Positions 339-11,723 of a stretch of 64,000 nucleotides of DNA are shown here, piece after piece; position 1 is the stretch's first letter, and each line of letters begins with the position of its first letter. A program made the translations under genes and the position numbers. Under the pieces are notes generated by a model, which saw only the letters and a list, made by a program, of their open reading frames with translations, searched no databases and had not been told where the DNA came from. Source of the stretch: Vaginella massiliensis (GTDB taxonomy: Bacteria > Bacteroidota > Bacteroidia > Flavobacteriales > Weeksellaceae); the NCBI RefSeq assembly GCF_900089075.1, contig NZ_LT593746.1, forward strand, positions 1,075,207 through 1,139,206. Reading direction: 5' to 3'.

Positions 339-356
339 TGGTTCGAGGTTTTTTTA
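318..356. terminator. bidirectional terminator between rhomboid gene and peroxidase operon
   Basis: Arms aaaaaacct (319-327) and aggtttttt (346-354) pair across an 18-nt loop. A-run and T-run on the two sides suit both converging transcripts. The loop is long, so strength is uncertain. Confidence 0.45.
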
Positions 357-1502
357 TTTTGTAGGAAATTCTGGTCTTCTCATTTTGTATTTGGTACCCG
401 TCATGGATTCTAAGAAGGATACCAAAGCTTTTTTTTCTACTTTTGATAAATTCAGAGGTTTCAATAAAGAATCTGTTACAGGATGCATTGGGTCTGCAAT
501 TTTTTGTTCTGGTGTGGGACTATTCATTTGCATTCCGCTGTTGTAAATATTTACAATTCCTTCTAAAGTATCAAACAATCCGTTGTGCATCCAAGGTCTT
601 GTAATCATCAAATCTCGTAAAGATGGAGTTTTGAATTTTCCAGTATCATCTGGATTTTTAGTGATTTCGTACAAGCCTAAATCTTCGTATTCTCTTTTGT
701 AATAGGTAAGTCCAATGTTATGAAAAGATTCGTCTGTTAAATTCTTTCCGAAGTGGCAATTCATACAACGAGCTTTCGTTCTGAAAATATGCATACCGTA
801 GATTTCTTCATCGGTAAGAGCTGTGTAGTTTCCATCAATAAATTTATCAAATCTACTCGGTTGACTTTTTATCGTTTTTTGAAATTCTGCTAAAGCATTG
901 AAAATTCTTTCTGTGGTTATTTTATTATCACCAAAAGCATCTTCAAATAGTTTTAAATAATCTTGATATTTGCTTAGTCTTTCTGGTAATAAATTTAGAT
1001 CCATTGCCATTTCGTTATGCGCAGCGATAGGTCCTGAAGCTTGCTGTTCTAGTGTTGTTGCTCTTCCATCCCAAAAGAAACTTGTTCGGTCTGCAATATT
1101 AAGAAGTGACATGGTATTGCGTTTGCCTTGTAAATGATCATTCCCTAAAGCTACTCTACGTGCATCTGTCCATCCAAATTCTGGTTCGTGGCAAGAGCTG
1201 CAAGAAATTTGTTGAGAACCCGAAAGTTTTGGATCGAAGAACAACATTTTTCCTAATAAAACTTTTGGTAAAGCTTGTGTGGTGAAATAAGCGGTATCTG
1301 TTTTTATAGACTGAAATTCTTTCCACTCTACACCATGATCAATCGTAGGTTTTGGCCAATCTACAATTGCTTTTTTATAACTGTTGACAATATCTTGCAC
1401 TTTTGGGTCTTGAATCTTTTCTAATGACTGTTTTACTTTTGGTGTAAAACCGACCAAAATAGATAAAATGATGCCAATTACAAGTAATGTGAATTTTTTC
1501 AT
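354..1502 (-). CDS. di-haem cytochrome c peroxidase / MauG-family protein
   Basis: A 382-residue exported protein: hydrophobic N-terminal segment (about residues 4-19), then two haem c attachment motifs, CSSCH at 101-105 and CMNCH at 246-250, the hallmark of bacterial di-haem peroxidases (reduction of H2O2 in the periplasm) and of MauG-like enzymes. The N-terminal haem domain includes the conserved region with RNTMSLLN and FFWDGRATTLE. It is the last gene of a four-gene operon (receptor, lipoprotein, barrel, peroxidase), only 4 bp after the barrel gene. That context suggests a role tied to the imported substrate, perhaps oxidation of a metal or haem compound, rather than simple peroxide defence; this is inference. 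Confidence 0.88.
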   Translation of the reverse strand: MKKFTLLVIGIILSILVGFTPKVKQSLEKIQDPKVQDIVNSYKKAIVDWPKPTIDHGVEWKEFQSIKTDTAYFTTQALPKVLLGKMLFFDPKLSGSQQISCSSCHEPEFGWTDARRVALGNDHLQGKRNTMSLLNIADRTSFFWDGRATTLEQQASGPIAAHNEMAMDLNLLPERLSKYQDYLKLFEDAFGDNKITTERIFNALAEFQKTIKSQPSRFDKFIDGNYTALTDEEIYGMHIFRTKARCMNCHFGKNLTDESFHNIGLTYYKREYEDLGLYEITKNPDDTGKFKTPSLRDLMITRPWMHNGLFDTLEGIVNIYNSGMQMNSPTPEQKIADPMHPVTDSLLKPLNLSKVEKKALVSFLESMTGTKYKMRRPEFPTK

Positions 1503-1506
1503 TTCT

Positions 1507-3033
1507 TTAGAATGTTATTCCAAGGTTTAGGCTTGTAAAATTATTGTTTTTATTTTGTATTTTCTGTGATTGATATTGGGTTCCGATAAATATTGCCGGG
1601 ATTTTATCTAGTTCTAGATGATAACGTAAAGATGCTCCAACGGTTGTGATATCACTTGTGAGAAATGTATAATCTCTTAGAACCATATCATTCAAAAAGT
1701 CGATATTGTTTAGATTAAGAGCATTTGTTACGTTGATTACTTGTCGTTGAGAATAATAAGGTTGAAATTCTAAAACTTGATTATTTTTTATCTTTTGTTT
1801 AAAATCTAAGTTTATACCAAATTGTATACAATCATATTTCTGTCCATTAAATGGGTATAATCTAGATTCTTTAATGGTTTGATAATCTGTAAACGGAATA
1901 ATAGCAAGGCTGTATTTGTCTTTTTGTAATTCGTAATAAAGTTGAATTTTACTTGTGTTGGTTTCTTTCCTGTAAGCTTTTCTTTTGAATATAACTTGTG
2001 TTATTTCTGTATTATTGGTATAGCCGTATTCTTCCCCAGTTCTTGTTTGGTTAGCCAGTTGTGCAATAAACCCAATACGGTTCTGATTAAAACTATAAAA
2101 TTTTCCTATTTCGATAGAGTTGCTTTCGGTTGTCAAATCAGAAATATCATAATAAGCGTTGGTTACTTTTTTTGTGTTTTTTGATTTTTCTAATGTTGCA
2201 TTTAAATAAAAATCATGTTTTTTATTGATGATTTGTCCTCCTGCGGTGTATCCATACTCTTCGTGTATGCTAGAATTAGTATTACTAAAGAAATAATTGT
2301 AAGCACCGAAACCATTCATATTATACAAATATGGATTGATAATGTCGCTTATGAATTTTACAGAAATTTTTTGGGTGTATTTGTTTACGTTAGCAAAGAC
2401 TCCTATAGTCCAATCTTTGTATAGGTTGAAATTAAAACCTATTTTCATAGATAGGTCAGAAGTGGTTGTTACATTTCTAGGATCCCGTGGTCTGCTTCCT
2501 TGTTGTGCAGAATAGTCTGCTTGTAAACCTAATGTCCATTTGTTGATTTTTTGATTATATCCACCTCCAAATTTATATTGTTCTATGTTCATGTTTCCAC
2601 CAATACTATCAGCAATGATATAGGGTGCTATACGATCAAAGTCTAGATTTTCATTCCATTTGATATTGAAAATATCTTGGTTTTGATAGTTTGCATTTCC
2701 CCATATGGTTTTGTTTTCGTTTAGTTTTTGAAACGAATTGGTGAGAATCGTAAAACCTTCGGATTTAGAGCCCGTCTGCTGACGAAATAATTTTTTGTCG
2801 TCTTTTAGATAGTTAAGAGAAAAGTCAGAGAATGAAGAAGAACTATAATCCGACATAGTTGCCGGATTATAGAATAAATTGTTTTTTAAATCTCTTTCTG
2901 TATTGTATTGATTGTAGATTTTAGGATACAAATCAATACTGTCTTGTGCTTGCAATATTGTGTAACCTAAACTAATCAAAACAAAGCCAAGAAAATTTAA
3001 TATTTTCAATTTTAAAATATTTTTAATGAACAA
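1507..3033 (-). CDS. predicted outer-membrane beta-barrel protein (DUF6850-like)
   Basis: 508 residues with an N-terminal signal peptide ending near LQAQD (about residue 30). The rest is rich in alternating aromatic and polar residues (for example YSLAIIPFTDYQTI and FIGTQYQSQ), ending in LNLGITF with a terminal Phe, as expected for a beta-barrel inserted by the Bam machinery. It resembles the barrel family annotated DUF6850, which I recall next to DUF4876 lipoproteins; this assignment is from memory. It overlaps the upstream lipoprotein gene by 11 bp, so the two are probably translationally coupled. Function unknown; likely partner of the receptor and lipoprotein encoded upstream. Confidence 0.75.
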   Translation of the reverse strand: MFIKNILKLKILNFLGFVLISLGYTILQAQDSIDLYPKIYNQYNTERDLKNNLFYNPATMSDYSSSSFSDFSLNYLKDDKKLFRQQTGSKSEGFTILTNSFQKLNENKTIWGNANYQNQDIFNIKWNENLDFDRIAPYIIADSIGGNMNIEQYKFGGGYNQKINKWTLGLQADYSAQQGSRPRDPRNVTTTSDLSMKIGFNFNLYKDWTIGVFANVNKYTQKISVKFISDIINPYLYNMNGFGAYNYFFSNTNSSIHEEYGYTAGGQIINKKHDFYLNATLEKSKNTKKVTNAYYDISDLTTESNSIEIGKFYSFNQNRIGFIAQLANQTRTGEEYGYTNNTEITQVIFKRKAYRKETNTSKIQLYYELQKDKYSLAIIPFTDYQTIKESRLYPFNGQKYDCIQFGINLDFKQKIKNNQVLEFQPYYSQRQVINVTNALNLNNIDFLNDMVLRDYTFLTSDITTVGASLRYHLELDKIPAIFIGTQYQSQKIQNKNNNFTSLNLGITF

Positions 3034-4234
3034 TACCGTTTGCTAATGAAGAATCTGAATTAGCGATAAAATCTTCTGTAGAGTTATTGGTATCTTGGTA
3101 ACGTGTTTTTCCATTTTTCAATTTACCTGCTTCTTTACGTCGGATTGTTTTGCCATTGTATCCTGGCCAAGCACCTGTCCATCCTGAATCTATAGATTTA
3201 GAAGTAATTAATCTTAAGAATTTGTCGGGATTGCTTACATTTACTCCATCTATAATCCATGAGTTTGGAATTTGGTAAGATGATCGATTAATGACATTTC
3301 CAGCTGCATTTGTATAAGAGTAATTGTATTTGTTGTTTTCTAGAAAGTTTTCTGCATTTTGTCCTTCAGGGAAGCGAGCAATTACATAAGACTCTTGACT
3401 AGTTGTGTATAAGAATATCATATTGTAATTCATTTTTGTATAAATGATATTCATATTTGGTACATTAGGATTATCTACTTGCCCTAAAGATGGATTTTCA
3501 TTCGGGAACTCAAAATCAGCATTAATTAAATTATAAGCATCAGGTGCAAATTCTGTATGATCTATGGCATTATCTGCTACTACAATAAAATCACCAGGCT
3601 GTACTGGGTGTTCTGTTCCACTACCAGGAACAGTCATGATTGCGGATATAGCAAAAGCTTTATTCGGGTGAAATGGTGTTACATGCTGATCGGTTGTTGT
3701 AAAGAATTCAGACGTGGCAATAATTAAGTTATCAGCATACAATACTTTTTCTGTATTATTGGTAATTTTGAAATAACGACTATTGTTGTAATTTTTATTT
3801 TCTGCAGTTTTTATTCCTGTAAAGAAAACTTCTTCTATAATGAAATCTTCACCAAACTGTTTTACTAATAAATCTATTGTAAGGTTAGATGATAAGGTGT
3901 TTATAACAATTGTATTTCCTCCTGCAATTGCAACGTGGTCTCCATTGTTATCAATCCCTAAGCCGTTTGCAATGATGTTGTATGATCCGTAAGGTAGTTC
4001 TAATGAGTAAGTAGTTTGGTTTTCTAGTGATATGGTTTGTTTAGTTCCAGTGTTGGTTTCGATAATCTCAATTTTTAAGGAATTGATTTTTGATACGTTT
4101 TCTCCCTTAAAATTAAGTGTTAAAACACTGTTTTGTGTAACTTCTACTCCGAAGTCGTCATCACTATTACAAGAAAAAAGATTGAAAGATGCAAAAAGTG
4201 CTGCAATTCCTAAAATAATAATTCTCTTTTTCAT
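3023..4234 (-). CDS. DUF4876-like surface lipoprotein
   Basis: 403-residue lipoprotein: signal peptide with lipobox ending at Cys22 (NLFSC), followed by NSDDD, the acidic stretch typical of Bacteroidota surface lipoproteins. Residues about 35-125 form a beta-sandwich-like domain; from about 130 the pattern (FIIEEVFFTG, NNSRYFKITNNTEKVLYADNLII, QPGDFIVVADNAIDH) resembles a lamin-tail-like fold, as in DUF4876 proteins. It lies between a TonB-dependent receptor gene and a barrel gene, the usual place for a substrate-binding surface lipoprotein, though it is not SusD-like. The substrate is unknown; family assignment is by recognition only. Confidence 0.75.
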   Translation of the reverse strand: MKKRIIILGIAALFASFNLFSCNSDDDFGVEVTQNSVLTLNFKGENVSKINSLKIEIIETNTGTKQTISLENQTTYSLELPYGSYNIIANGLGIDNNGDHVAIAGGNTIVINTLSSNLTIDLLVKQFGEDFIIEEVFFTGIKTAENKNYNNSRYFKITNNTEKVLYADNLIIATSEFFTTTDQHVTPFHPNKAFAISAIMTVPGSGTEHPVQPGDFIVVADNAIDHTEFAPDAYNLINADFEFPNENPSLGQVDNPNVPNMNIIYTKMNYNMIFLYTTSQESYVIARFPEGQNAENFLENNKYNYSYTNAAGNVINRSSYQIPNSWIIDGVNVSNPDKFLRLITSKSIDSGWTGAWPGYNGKTIRRKEAGKLKNGKTRYQDTNNSTEDFIANSDSSLANGIVH

Positions 4235-4270
4235 ATTAAAATATTTGTTTTTTACTTTTGACTGATATTG

Positions 4271-7030
4271 TTAATAATTGTACTTTAATTCCATTCCGAA
4301 ATAAGGCGCAATACCGTTTCTACGCTCTATTTTTCGTCCATGAAATGTATAAGGATGTGCATAACTAAATAATCGATTTACAAACATAGATGCGCTAAGA
4401 GATTTATAGATGCTCTTGGTAACTTTTAGATTTGTATTGAAAGTAAAAGTATAGTTAGTTTGTATATTATCAGTTACTGAGGTGTTTCTTACTAGCCATT
4501 GTAAAATTGCATCTGATTGTTCTATTTCTGTGTATGGAAAAATATTTCCGTTCGGATCTACATAGTAATCTGGCTTTGCTATTCGTTTGTCTCTTTTTTC
4601 TCTATTAAATAAAGAGCCCTGAAAAGATGCTGAAAAAGTAAGGTTTAAATTAGGGATGTACGTATCTATAAATAGGTTGTAATTCATGTTTCTAAAATCA
4701 TAACCCATATCATTTTTATAAATTCCTACATATTGATAATCATTTCCTACTAATGAAACTTGTGGTTTCTCTTGTACAGGAATTGTATTTCTGTATTGAG
4801 TTCTGAAGTAAGAACCTGTAAATGTAAAACGAGTGTTAATGGTTTTGATTCTTGGTGATGAATAACCGAATTCTACACCATTTTTAGTAGTCTCACTTCC
4901 GTTTTCTGTGGTTGTATAAGAAGCCCAAACTTTTCTTGATTCAAAAGGAATATTTGTTAAATCTGGTCCATTATTCCAAGTACTAAGATCCACTTGTGTA
5001 TTATCATATCTTTTATAAGAATGGACTGTATAATTGCTCACGGCACGAAAACCATTTTCTAAATTTTCTTTGTAAAAGTTGACAAAAAGATTGTGGTTTT
5101 TGTAGCTTAAATCGACTCTCAATTCTTTTTTTATGTTTTTTGCAGCTACTAAATTCTTGTTTACCGTATTTTGTTTATAGGTCATAAAATAAGCATAACG
5201 ATAATCTGCATCTTTATGAAAAAAACTTAATTGTGTATAATCCCAAAATCGATCATTCGGATAAAGGTTATTCAAAGTTGGCATTTTGTAAAACTCTCCA
5301 TAACCCATGGTCAAATCTATTAGAAAAGGAGAGTTGTTAAGTATAAGTTTAGGGAGGTTGTATTGTAAATTTACACGAGGCTCTGTATAGATTTTGTTGT
5401 TGATTTTATAATCAGAACCCACGTTAAGCATAGAAGAAAAGCGTAAACCGGCATAAAGTGTAAACCTGTGATTGTTGATTTTATATGCTATTTCATCACC
5501 CAGGAAAGTAGCAACTAATTGGTAAGCAGGGATATCATCAAAACGTCGAGGCCTTGTAGTCATCCCTCCAGTAACAGGTCTTAAGATGTCGTATTTATGC
5601 CCGGTACCATAATTTTTTGCCAAACGAAAATCCAATCCAGCTTCGTATTTATGATTAAAAGCCCCGATTGTTTTACGTCCATTTGCTTGGAACATAGCAG
5701 AAATGTTGAGTGGCTTGCCGTCAGTCTCAAAATCTGAAATGTATCTTGTTTCAGGAAAATATCCTACATTCTCTCCTTGTTCAGTTGCAATCGAAACGGC
5801 TCTAGGTCCTGATAGTTGAACAAATTTGGTTTGTTCTAATTTTTCAAAACCTTGTCTTGCAGATGTATTTAAGATAAATTTATTGAAGAATAAGTTTTCA
5901 TCTTTCAAATTGTAAATAAAATTATTACTCAATGCAATATTCTGATTAGAAGATTTGTATTTGTCTACTAAATCATATCCTGTATCAGGATCAGCTTTTT
6001 GTTTATCTAAGTTGTTTGAGTAATCTAAGTTTGATCGCCATTCTAAAGAATTTTCACCAATCTTAAATTTTGCTTTTGAACGTAAAGATGAAGTTAATCT
6101 TTGGTAATTGTTAAAATCGATATCGGGTGTAGACTTCGCATCAAGTAAGTCTAAGCTAGCAAATAAATCCCAGCTATCTTTAATTCTAAACCCTTTTCCT
6201 GTATAGTATTGTTTGCTAAATCCGTCAGATTTAAATCTCACTTGAATAGGAGTATGCCTTATCTTTCGATCTATTTTTATCAAACCAGAAGTTAAATCTC
6301 CATAACCAGCAGAAGGAATTCCTCTTATAATTTCTACCTTTTCGATATCATTCGTAGAAAGAGTTCGCATATCTACACCAGTACTTGTGGTGTATCTATT
6401 TTCCGCAGCTTTTAATAGATGGTCAGCATCTAGAGAGGTTTGAAGATTTGCTCCAGAGTTAATTACATTATCATCAATCATAAACTGAATACCTAGAGAT
6501 GTTGTATTGTAATCTGATGGTCTACGGCTTTCCCTTAATGATGCGCTATTATTTGATGTTAGAGAAGGATCACGTGCCAACCCTCCTGGAAGTAACTCCA
6601 TGAGATCTGTAAAACTAGAAGGTTGCAAATGTTGCATAGCTTCTTTGGTGATGATTGATTTACTTGTAAGTCCTTTATCTTCTTTTGCAGTGATTACAAC
6701 TTTTTGTAATTGATTATAATCCGATTTTAACTCTATGTTGAAAACTGTGTTCTTGGAAAGGTTAATACTTATTTCTTGAGGCTGATACATGAAATGATTA
6801 ATCAATAAAGTATACGAACCTTTCGCTAAAACAATACTAGTCCTTCCTTCTTGATCACTGATTCCTAATATCTTTTCGTTAGAGATAATTTCTACATCAC
6901 TTATTTTTACTTTATCAATATCAGAAATATCAAAAGTAACGATGTAATCCTGAGCTTGTATAGAATAACAAACGACTAATAGAATGATTAATGAAAGCTT
7001 TTTGATTGAAATAGAATGGTTTATTAACAT
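4271..7030 (-). CDS. TonB-dependent outer-membrane receptor with carboxypeptidase-like N-domain
   Basis: 919 residues. Signal peptide ends near SIQAQ (residue 27). A carboxypeptidase-regulatory-like beta domain covers about 28-112, then the plug (about 120-250, with TFTDLMELLPGG-like and NDIEKVEIIRGIPSAGYGD segments), then a 22-strand-type barrel ending in aromatic residues (KYNY). Such receptors import siderophores, haem, cobalamin or glycans using TonB energy. It is the first gene of an operon with a DUF4876-like lipoprotein, a second barrel and a di-haem peroxidase. Absence of SusD and glycosidases argues against a glycan locus; a metal or haem ligand is more likely, but no ligand can be read from the sequence. 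The operon is AT-richer than the housekeeping genes nearby. Confidence 0.9.
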   Translation of the reverse strand: MLINHSISIKKLSLIILLVVCYSIQAQDYIVTFDISDIDKVKISDVEIISNEKILGISDQEGRTSIVLAKGSYTLLINHFMYQPQEISINLSKNTVFNIELKSDYNQLQKVVITAKEDKGLTSKSIITKEAMQHLQPSSFTDLMELLPGGLARDPSLTSNNSASLRESRRPSDYNTTSLGIQFMIDDNVINSGANLQTSLDADHLLKAAENRYTTSTGVDMRTLSTNDIEKVEIIRGIPSAGYGDLTSGLIKIDRKIRHTPIQVRFKSDGFSKQYYTGKGFRIKDSWDLFASLDLLDAKSTPDIDFNNYQRLTSSLRSKAKFKIGENSLEWRSNLDYSNNLDKQKADPDTGYDLVDKYKSSNQNIALSNNFIYNLKDENLFFNKFILNTSARQGFEKLEQTKFVQLSGPRAVSIATEQGENVGYFPETRYISDFETDGKPLNISAMFQANGRKTIGAFNHKYEAGLDFRLAKNYGTGHKYDILRPVTGGMTTRPRRFDDIPAYQLVATFLGDEIAYKINNHRFTLYAGLRFSSMLNVGSDYKINNKIYTEPRVNLQYNLPKLILNNSPFLIDLTMGYGEFYKMPTLNNLYPNDRFWDYTQLSFFHKDADYRYAYFMTYKQNTVNKNLVAAKNIKKELRVDLSYKNHNLFVNFYKENLENGFRAVSNYTVHSYKRYDNTQVDLSTWNNGPDLTNIPFESRKVWASYTTTENGSETTKNGVEFGYSSPRIKTINTRFTFTGSYFRTQYRNTIPVQEKPQVSLVGNDYQYVGIYKNDMGYDFRNMNYNLFIDTYIPNLNLTFSASFQGSLFNREKRDKRIAKPDYYVDPNGNIFPYTEIEQSDAILQWLVRNTSVTDNIQTNYTFTFNTNLKVTKSIYKSLSASMFVNRLFSYAHPYTFHGRKIERRNGIAPYFGMELKYNY

Positions 7031-7221
7031 CGAGCTTCTAAATGGGTAACAAAATTAAGAAGCGTTTAACAAAATAACTAATTTTATTTAGAATAAATAT
7101 AAATAATATGACTAAAATCATGTTTTCCTGTACTATTGTAACCGATCAATTATTATTTATAAACAGAATTTTTTAGGGAAGATATCTTTTGTATAATCAA
7201 AATTATAATTAAAAAACTATC

Positions 7222-7229
7222 TACCTTTG
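7222..7229 (+). promoter_or_regulatory. -7 box of rnpB
   Basis: TACCTTTG matches the Bacteroidota -7 consensus TAnnTTTG and ends 4 nt before the first paired base of the RNase P RNA, as expected for a transcript starting at about 7234. A good -33 TTG is not visible. Confidence 0.65.
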
Positions 7230-7233
7230 TACC

Positions 7234-7549
7234 GAGCAAGTCGCTTTGTCGCTGCGATGAAAATCGGAGAGGAAAGTCCGGACACCAAAGGGCAAGCATA
7301 GCGGATAACATCCGTCCGTCGAAAGGCGAGGACAAGTGCAACAGAAAGCAAGTACAGTTCGGCTGTAGTGAAAACAGGTAAACTCTATGCGGTGAAATGC
7401 CATGTATACCAACAGTTAAGTGCTGCTCGTGCGTTGTTGGGGGGTAGGCAGCTTCATGTTTTGGGTAACCAAAATAGTAGATAAATGACAAAGGCTTTGC
7501 TTGGTTATCATACCAAGCAAAGTACAGAATCCGGCTTATAGACTTGCTC
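7234..7549 (+). ncRNA. rnpB: RNase P RNA (bacterial class A)
   Basis: The RNA subunit of RNase P, which matures tRNA 5' ends. Visible landmarks: P1 helix formed by gagcaagtc (7234-7242) and gacttgctc (7541-7549); the universally conserved gaggaaagtccggac block at 7270-7284; acagaaa in the middle; and the acagaatccggctta block near the 3' end (7524-7538), whose ccgg/ggct bases belong to P2/P4 and the core. Length is about 316 nt, within the usual range. It has its own promoter and is divergent from the receptor operon. Its 3' end is only 9 bp from the stop codon of the converging pyrD gene. Open frames across this stretch are not genes. Confidence 0.95.
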
Positions 7550-7558
7550 TTTTCTTTC

Positions 7559-10051: not shown

Positions 10052-11723
10052 ATGATAAAAAAAATGAGGTCAAAAACCAACTCAATTTAATAATTTAGAA
10101 AAAGATGAGTTATTATTCTTGTTTACGCACTCATCTTTTTCAGATTATGAGCTAAAGCATGCAATCCGAACTCTAATTCCACTTTTTCAATTCCTTTTAG
10201 GGTAAATCTTTTGAAGTTTCGGTTGTGTTTGAGTTGGGCAAATGTAGGTTCGACATCAGCAGTTCTTTGTTTTCTTCTTATTTCTCCGATATCGGATGTG
10301 AGAAGTTCTCTTGTTTTTTGTTTGTGGTATTCTAATTTATGGTTCCTTTCTACTGTCCTGTTGTTTTTCCCCTTGAAGCACTGGCTTCTGAGCGGACATC
10401 CATTGCAGTTTTTAGCGGTATAACAACTATAGGTTTGCTTATATCCTGACTTTGTTTGGACTTTTCGCTCACCGCGCTTTTCCATACGTTGTCCCATCGG
10501 GCATACATAAAAATCTTGCGCTTCATTATAATAGAGTGAGTCTCGTTCAAAGGGTTTGGGATTTTTTCTTTTCTTTGATTTACCTTGTTCTTGGTCAAAG
10601 GTGTTGAACTTTACAAAGGCTTTGATTGCTTTGTCCTCCAAAAGTTCGTAATTTTCTTCACTTCCGTATCCTGCATCTGCGGTGAGTTCTTCGGGAAGCT
10701 CATTGTAGAGTTTTTTATGGTTTTCTAAATGAGGTTTTAAAGTATGAATGTCGTTGGTGTCTTGATGTAAGGTATAGTTGACGATGATTTGGTTTTCGGT
10801 GCTGATTTGTGCATTGTAGCCGGGTTTTAATTGTCCGTTCTGCATGTGGTCGTCCTTCATGCGCATAAAGGTCGCATCGGGATCGGTTTTGCTGTAGGAG
10901 TTGCGTTCTTGTAGTAACTTTTCTTGTTCTTGGTATTTCTTTAAGTTTGGCGCAAAATTCTTTTGGATGTAACGGGATTTGGCTTTTTTCTTTGGATCGT
11001 CAGACTTTTCTTTTAGGATTCGGTTGATTTTATCTGCGGCTTGTTGGACTTTTTCAGGATCAAGTTTTTTGAACTCCGGTGGCTCGGGATCTTGGTCTTC
11101 TTCATCAGCAACGCACTGCGCGTATTGCCACATATCCTCTAATTGTTTGATCATTTTCTCCCGATTGGTCTTGATGGAATTTCCCCAGACAAAGGTGTAT
11201 CTTCCAGCTACCGATTCTATTTTGGTGCCGTCTGTATAAACTCGTTTGAGACTCACTAATTTTTCTTCTGCCAAAAGCAATACCACTTGTTTGAAGATGT
11301 CTTTGAATACGGCTTTTAACTTATTGCTTCGAAATCGGGCTATCGTATTATGGTCGATGCTTTCTCTACCAGAAAGCCACATAAAGTTTATGTTCTCATT
11401 GAGGGCTTTTTCGATCTTTCTACTGGAATAAATATTGTCCATATAAGCGTAAACCATCACTTTGAGCATCATTTTAGGATGATAACTAGGATGACCTTCC
11501 CGACTGTAAGTTTCTAAAAGAGGTTTTAAGTCTATCTTCTCAACTACGTTGTTTAAGATTCTTACTGGATGATTAGTCGGAATTAATTCTTCTATCGAAG
11601 GTGGAAATAACCAGTTTTGGGATTGGTTATATTCTTTAATTCTATAGTTCATTTCGCTGAAAATTAAGTAGTTAAATATAGTGAATTCTATATTAATCAC
11701 CTAATAATCAATCCATTATTTAT
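10052..11723 (-). mobile_element. IS1182-family insertion sequence (approximate limits)
   Basis: The limits are the two flanking terminator hairpins; I could not identify convincing terminal inverted repeats or a target duplication by eye, so the ends are approximate. The element holds a single full-length transposase gene and looks intact. A stem at 10099-10110/10129-10140 (aaaaagatgagt / actcatcttttt) surrounds the transposase stop codon and probably terminates its transcript. Confidence 0.45.
10123..11652 (-). CDS. IS1182-family transposase
   Basis: 509 residues from the ATG at 11652. The N-terminal DUF772-like region includes NWLFPPSIEELIPTNHPVRI and HPSYHPKMMLKVMVYAYM. The DDE catalytic domain includes VYTDGTKIESVAGRYTF, a central LTADAGYGSEENYELL segment and a C-terminal YYNEAQDFYVCPMG cysteine region (CPMGQRM, CYTAKNCNGCPLRSQCF). 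It ends with RKQRTADVEPTFAQLKHNRNFKRF, bearing the last acidic residue. No frameshift or stop interrupts it, so it may be active. An in-frame upstream start at 11700 is possible but lacks the family N-terminus. Confidence 0.88.
   Translation of the reverse strand: MNYRIKEYNQSQNWLFPPSIEELIPTNHPVRILNNVVEKIDLKPLLETYSREGHPSYHPKMMLKVMVYAYMDNIYSSRKIEKALNENINFMWLSGRESIDHNTIARFRSNKLKAVFKDIFKQVVLLLAEEKLVSLKRVYTDGTKIESVAGRYTFVWGNSIKTNREKMIKQLEDMWQYAQCVADEEDQDPEPPEFKKLDPEKVQQAADKINRILKEKSDDPKKKAKSRYIQKNFAPNLKKYQEQEKLLQERNSYSKTDPDATFMRMKDDHMQNGQLKPGYNAQISTENQIIVNYTLHQDTNDIHTLKPHLENHKKLYNELPEELTADAGYGSEENYELLEDKAIKAFVKFNTFDQEQGKSKKRKNPKPFERDSLYYNEAQDFYVCPMGQRMEKRGERKVQTKSGYKQTYSCYTAKNCNGCPLRSQCFKGKNNRTVERNHKLEYHKQKTRELLTSDIGEIRRKQRTADVEPTFAQLKHNRNFKRFTLKGIEKVELEFGLHALAHNLKKMSA

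Follow-up and report, generated by a model that had tools for sequence, protein, structure and literature searches.

Three sets of genes that combine a TonB-dependent receptor (TBDR) with one or more proteins of the DUF4876 family are induced by iron shortage, as far as the available part of PMC10434189 goes: PG1019-22 of Porphyromonas gingivalis (up 20.8-214.5-fold), and BT3625-33 (36.7-128-fold) and BT1933-39 (3.5-7.4-fold) of Bacteroides thetaiotaomicron. The available extract of a study of hemin availability gives a log fold change of -5.42 for a P. gingivalis DUF4876 gene (PMC10470040). The consulted portion of PMC10434189 states no mechanism for the DUF4876 family. Here we describe an operon of Vaginella massiliensis, found in a 64-kb stretch of contig NZ_LT593746.1 (the window, meaning the whole stretch that was analysed), in which the genes for a TBDR, a DUF4876 lipoprotein and a DUF6850 barrel are followed by one for a di-haem enzyme. 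The three sets resemble it in joining a TBDR to DUF4876 protein(s), but in the same portion of PMC10434189 no di-haem enzyme is named for any of them, and BT3625-33 has PepSY, ABC and DUF4857 genes where the window operon has the enzyme. We consider it probable that the operon serves iron acquisition at the outer membrane, is repressed by Fur and has a partner module that can be exchanged.

A receptor accompanied by a surface lipoprotein is also found in the BtuB-BtuG and SusC-SusD lipoprotein-lid transporters and in the Xus xenosiderophore system of Bacteroides (BT_2063-2065). DUF4876 differs from the BtuG and SusD lids in that its only strong fold match is a member of its own family, 4q1z. 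BtuB chains are among the barrel matches of DUF6850. Xus shares PepSY_TM with some Bacteroidales DUF4876 loci, but the window operon differs from it in having DUF4876, DUF6850 and the di-haem enzyme, and the likeness is one of make-up. The MbnP/MbnH, SACCP/MopE and CorB/CorA systems are like the operon in that a MauG-like di-haem enzyme and its partner protein are encoded side by side, in many cases close to a TBDR; the MbnP and MopE/CorA partners, unlike DUF4876, have a conserved Trp (in MopE converted to kynurenine) and are linked to copper, according to the available part of PMC3621798.

Four open reading frames (ORFs), all on the minus strand, span positions 354-7030 of the window. They encode a TBDR of 919 aa with a plug domain (4271-7030; Pfam Plug, 1e-6, and a CarbopepD_reg_2 match below its cut-off); a DUF4876 (PF16215) lipoprotein of 403 aa (3023-4234; 3.5e-46, 158 bits against a curated cut-off of 27.9); a DUF6850 (PF21012) outer-membrane beta-barrel of 508 aa with a TTG start (1507-3033; 2.1e-80, 271.6 bits against a cut-off of 27, full length at positions 1-464 of the 464 in the profile); and a MauG/MbnH-type di-haem c-type enzyme of 382 aa with a signal-like N-terminus (354-1502; Pfam CCP_MauG, 1.1e-51). 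The close packing claimed in a preliminary description of this DNA, with gaps of 4-36 bp or an overlap, is confirmed: 36 bp separate the TBDR and DUF4876 genes, those of DUF4876 and DUF6850 overlap by 11 bp, and 4 bp lie between DUF6850 and the di-haem gene. The reported absence of SusD, glycosidase and siderophore-synthesis families likewise holds for the eight proteins in and around the operon that were scanned with Pfam; with no SusD family match among its proteins, the operon is not a SusC/SusD glycan system. By sequence the TBDR has no solved homologue at E<=0.001, hence structures offer no pointer to its substrate.

Of 395 Bacteroidota genomes, 37 have DUF4876; of 395 from the window's order, 34 do. 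In the same gene run as DUF4876, a TBDR was found in 70 of 71 loci and DUF6850 in 69 of 71, and both accompany it in 76 of the 79 named loci, a set made up of the best of 531 confirmed relatives, so that near relatives of the query are over-represented. The order TBDR, DUF4876, DUF6850 is almost constant across loci, and the linkage of the three is beyond chance. The preliminary description had proposed the four families as a set and co-occurrence in other genomes as its check; this core of three passes the check, and the fourth gene is present in 41 of the 79 named loci. Where present, the di-haem gene comes after DUF6850, with a 133-aa ORF intervening in one case (L054).

The di-haem enzyme is an exchangeable fourth part of the operon. 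In the 79 named loci it occurs in 41, an ABC-permease-DUF4857 set (all three being required for the label) in 24, neither in 14, and both in none. The enzyme is found in 36 of 41 Flavobacteriales loci, 5 of 5 Sphingobacteriales and 0 of 32 Bacteroidales; the ABC set in 23 of 32 Bacteroidales loci and in one locus without rank. In L085, which belongs to the same order as the window, the ABC set stands where the enzyme would be. Thirteen of the 24 loci with the ABC set (a manual count) encode PepSY_TM, frequently together with a lipoprotein that matches an OB-fold weakly, below the cut-off. For the comparisons below, the locus sets overlap, and removal of exact DUF4876 duplicates left 73 loci with the di-haem gene and 71 without it; no DUF4876 ORF was obtained from L089. 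The L082 locus was at first counted among those without the enzyme (a 35/36 split) owing to its broken DUF6850 frame, and later among those with it (77 of 149); its DUF6850 and TBDR are each split into two ORFs while the enzyme ORF is whole, which may be a sequencing error. In other lineages two further families, of about 140 and about 300 aa, join the DUF4876 core, one or both of them, in L040-L043, L045, L048, L049, L053 and L058; those of L042 have no Pfam match.

Upstream of the operon, 55-75 bp before the TBDR ATG, lies a Fur-box-like 21-bp palindrome, TATTTAGANNNNNTCTAAATA (7085-7105; one mismatch of 16), a putative site that would place the operon in a Fur regulon. It matches the published Riemerella Fur box ATTTAGAATTATTCTAAAT, for which four promoters were taken to electrophoretic mobility shift assay according to the part of PMC5609570 available. 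Palindromes were listed in the upstream regions and a fixed pattern then counted at no more than 3 mismatches of 16, in 77 regions from loci with the enzyme thinned to 61 non-redundant ones and in 69 unthinned regions from loci without it. The TATTTAGANNNNNTCTAAATA pattern precedes the TBDR in 54 of the 61 di-haem operons; shuffling gave a mean of 1.55 and a maximum of 4 (20 rounds), and the reversed pattern occurs in 3 of 61. All but one of the 54 sites (53/54) start within -160 to -15, and upstream of other ORFs in the same loci the pattern is seen in 16 of 393 cases. Nearer the gene, on the minus strand at 7050-7057, TAATTTTG is a candidate Bacteroidota -7 element as read from the sequence, since it fits what we take to be the -7 motif, TANNTTTG; no convincing -33 TTG is paired with it.

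The genome to which the window belongs has three FUR-family genes above cut-off and 19 sites with two mismatches or fewer, against 7 for the reversed pattern. The operon site is one of four genomic sites with a single mismatch, and other Fur-like sites adjoin FeoAB genes and a Peripla_BP_2-FecCD-ABC set. Two neighbouring Fur-like sites (3006, 3044) lie before an ankyrin-repeat gene (L254:1513-2988, minus strand); the second ORF downstream of this gene encodes PepSY_TM.

The lipobox Cys22 of DUF4876 is found in 73 of 73 proteins from loci with the enzyme; NSDDDF follows it in the window protein and acidic residues (SSDDDF-type) in most of the variants listed. Such an acidic stretch after the lipobox Cys is presumably a surface-export signal and, with both calls made by simple patterns, the DUF4876 lipoprotein is probably surface-exposed. 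His226 is retained in 98.6% of the proteins from loci with the enzyme and 99% of those from loci without it. The solved DUF4876 homologue, 4q1z, is BT_1938; a literature search on 4Q1Z found no paper. DUF6850 is predicted to form a barrel of about 18 strands (a manual count), its signal helix being followed by three short ones, at a mean pLDDT of 87.1; its fold matches are to barrels in general (receptors, FadL, OprC), with TM-scores no higher than 0.43 among the 50 matches listed.

The fourth protein had been called a di-haem cytochrome c peroxidase, and of this the Pfam family name (PF03150) and the two CxxCH motifs stand. These are CSSCH (residues 101-105; 1188-1202, minus strand) and CMNCH (residues 246-250; 753-767, minus strand), of which C101, C104, H105, C246, C249 and H250 are present in 73 of 73 operon copies. 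The ligand position departs from the classical enzymes. Tyr320 (543-545, minus strand; 73/73) aligns with a Tyr of 6e1c and with Tyr294 of MauG (a chain position counted by hand in the printed alignment), which we take to be an axial haem ligand; 1iqc has at this position a Met, presumably the distal ligand of the high-potential haem in classical di-haem cytochrome c peroxidase. The best NCBIfam profiles are MauG (TIGR03791, 230.8 bits) and MbnH (TIGR04039, 215.2 bits). Strict membership of MauG is not supported at an equivalog cut-off of 443.85 bits, the Tyr at position 294 notwithstanding, nor is that of MbnH at 362.85 bits; the enzyme beside the true MbnP in the window genome also falls below the MbnH cut-off (235.2 bits), which makes that threshold a poor arbiter in this case. 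Because of the Tyr at the ligand position and the profile scores, the enzyme appears better described as MauG/MbnH-type, and the peroxidase label is doubtful. Trp144 is present in 73 of 73 operon copies and Gln154 in 72 of 73. An N-terminal Y42...W49-P50 signature (1353-1379, minus strand) is kept in the operon copies (73, 73 and 71 of 73) and in non-operon relatives (19, 18 and 18 of 22), and is not seen in MbnP-linked copies. As a simple pattern detects a lipobox in 0 of 73 operon copies, the enzyme is probably periplasmic. At L105:9643-11542 (minus strand; G000:C7) the window genome encodes a true MbnP and, directly after it, its other di-haem enzyme of the MauG/MbnH type.

Among 76 sampled genomes of the window's family, a close relative of the enzyme (E<=1e-76) is present in 27 of 27 with DUF4876 against 13 of 49 without it (Fisher 7.8e-11, from a manual count and uncorrected for relatedness). 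In 25 of the 27 it is the operon copy itself, and in two (L152, L153) it is unlinked from the core. Twenty further regions with enzyme relatives were classed by our own reading as 10 orphans, 7 SusC/D-linked, 2 MbnP-linked and 1 unassigned, SusD being shown by Pfam in L145 only, and MbnP being shown in L150 and assigned by likeness in L155. In a quick tree the operon, SusC/D-linked and orphan copies form one clade (54 rows, support 100) apart from the MbnP-linked and unassigned copies, among which the program warned of long branches; the operon copies lie on both main branches and are thus not one clade (5 label changes). In L137, L142-L145, L147 and L154 the enzyme relatives close SusC-SusD-type operons, behind a lipoprotein of about 490 aa which, in L145 and L137, has no Pfam match.

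Several of our results weigh against an iron-acquisition operon of which the enzyme is a part. The Fur pattern was found in only 8 of the 69 loci without the di-haem enzyme, and several of the genomic Fur-like sites fall inside ORFs and look like chance. The motif was both derived from and counted in one set of upstream regions, so that the published Riemerella consensus is its independent support. The partner split tracks taxonomy, and oxygen as its cause is a guess; among Bacteroidales 9 of 32 loci, and among Flavobacteriales 5 of 41, have neither partner, but some of these lie close to a contig end (L166 stops shortly after DUF6850, which leaves its 'neither' label unsure). In the family, 13 of 40 genomes with a close enzyme relative lack DUF4876. 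None of the 10 orphans, L152 and L153 included, has the Fur box at three mismatches or fewer (they have 5-7), and 1 of 7 SusC/D-linked relatives has it before the receptor. These relatives without a Fur box indicate that the enzyme as such has no tie to iron, and with orphan, SusC/D-linked and MbnP-linked relatives in existence, the notion of an enzyme always bound to an iron system is unsupported. The published induction data come from anaerobes whose induced genes, in the parts of the literature consulted, are without a di-haem enzyme.

The enzyme might mature a partner, oxidatively modifying DUF4876, DUF6850 or the TBDR so as to create a metal or ligand site or a Tyr cross-link before the protein reaches the surface; its MauG/MbnH type, and the known parallel of MbnP-MbnH pairs near TBDRs, speak for this. 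The partner alignments, short proteins left out, held 72 DUF6850 rows from loci with the enzyme and 60 from loci without, and 72 and 67 TBDR rows. In the sets with the enzyme no partner has an invariant Trp, the best being W326 of DUF4876 (0.79), W126 of DUF6850 (0.76) and W331 of the TBDR (0.76), and W326 is found in proteins from loci without the enzyme too. MbnP served as positive control, in 31 of its best-scoring loci from the same order: two Trp are kept in 0.97 of them, and MxWxWxxxY in all 21 that have a di-haem-type neighbour, defined by a frame with both CxxCH and WDG no more than about 1.5 kb away. Mean identities of 0.35 for MbnP, 0.39 for DUF4876 and 0.27 for DUF6850 denote similar divergence. 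Since the Trp are invariant in MbnP and not in the operon partners, a conserved Trp reaction on a partner is disfavoured, and Trp modification of DUF4876 on the MbnP model was rejected as a conserved mechanism; nor do the two form an MbnP/MbnH pair, DUF4876 having neither an MbnP (PF20243) match nor an invariant Trp. Invariant Tyr candidates are at hand in DUF6850 Y153 (72/72 with the enzyme, 0.65 without, in groups that also differ by descent), DUF4876 Y85 (73/73 and 0.94) and TBDR Y823 (1.00 of 72 and 0.78 of 67). DUF4876 loci that lack the enzyme are common (72 of 149). We regard maturation of a partner as unlikely.

Equally, the enzyme could be an ordinary peroxidase hitch-hiking in an iron operon, where it would clear periplasmic H2O2 during iron import. 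Its PF03150 family and the orphan relatives, which have no surrounding uptake operon (though in L152 and L153 we read a receptor-like ORF on the opposite strand), are consistent with this, as are raised PG_1019 and PG_1020 values in a mutant transcriptome, in the part available of a paper on oxidative stress. Such protection is hard to square with the Tyr that replaces the Met of 1iqc in 73 of 73 copies, and with the constant place of the enzyme behind one barrel, DUF6850. MauG-type enzymes are poor classical peroxidases. We give this role a low probability. Copper uptake or homeostasis of the MbnP/MbnH kind, in place of iron, has in the copper-linked MbnT-MbnP-MbnH a close parallel to a TBDR, an exported partner and a di-haem enzyme; against it stand the Fur-type box, the published iron response of DUF4876 loci, the want of an MbnP match or invariant Trp in DUF4876, and the separate true MbnP beside the second di-haem gene of the same genome, which together make copper very improbable.

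The iron-acquisition operon remains the reading we favour. The operon, its conservation, the partner swap, the Fur-box-like site and the Tyr at the ligand position were computed here, while induction on iron depletion comes from papers on relatives; site and published data, the latter from partly available sources, uphold the link to a metal or haem suggested earlier and narrow it to iron. When iron is scarce, the TBDR, the DUF4876 lipoprotein and the DUF6850 barrel would capture their substrate, which we infer to be an iron carrier or haem, and import it. In Flavobacteriales and Sphingobacteriales the fourth gene adds the MauG/MbnH-type enzyme, probably in the periplasm, and most Bacteroidales copies have the ABC-permease-DUF4857 module instead, roughly every second one together with PepSY_TM. 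Oxidation of the imported compound by the enzyme, or release of a metal, as suggested earlier, is not established, and enzyme relatives outside these operons have no Fur box; tentatively, it may oxidise the imported carrier via a high-valent haem derived from O2 or H2O2 and so help to free iron. Rather more doubtful is a full scheme of oxidative iron acquisition, in which the enzyme, taken into a Fur-controlled receptor operon, would free iron by periplasmic oxidation or breakage of the imported ferric carrier (or of haem), and one core would work with interchangeable partners of oxygen and anaerobe types.

Around the operon, the four flanking proteins were matched by Pfam to the end of a rhomboid-like ORF (below cut-off), dihydroorotate dehydrogenase, Obg and a transposase. 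The transposase aside, these surroundings are of a housekeeping kind. RNase P RNA (RF00010, 202 bits) also flanks the operon, at 7233-7554 on the plus strand, and the ORF overlying it (7153-7491, minus strand) is probably spurious. The transposase ORF (DDE_Tnp_1_6) lies at 10123-11700 on the minus strand; a second ORF of the same length and with a near-identical start (L260:118-1692, minus strand) is found elsewhere in the genome, near feoAB.

That this set of genes has no described function, as had been stated, holds in the literature searched for DUF4876 and DUF4857; DUF6850 by itself was not among the search terms. A search on iron limitation in Flavobacteria found no paper joining all four terms, and the literature on MauG, diheme and TonB, judged by titles and the beginnings of abstracts, had none on this operon. 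In the papers found, so far as they were available, DUF4876 loci are strongly iron-induced in P. gingivalis and B. thetaiotaomicron, yet are without an assigned function. In Flavobacteriales and Sphingobacteriales the family is now tied to a Fur-box-like site; this tie, with the partner swap between taxa, makes the question of the substrate testable in environmental laboratory strains. To our knowledge, Trp modification and copper are the only settings described for MauG-type enzymes; that of the operon would be a member of this type outside both.

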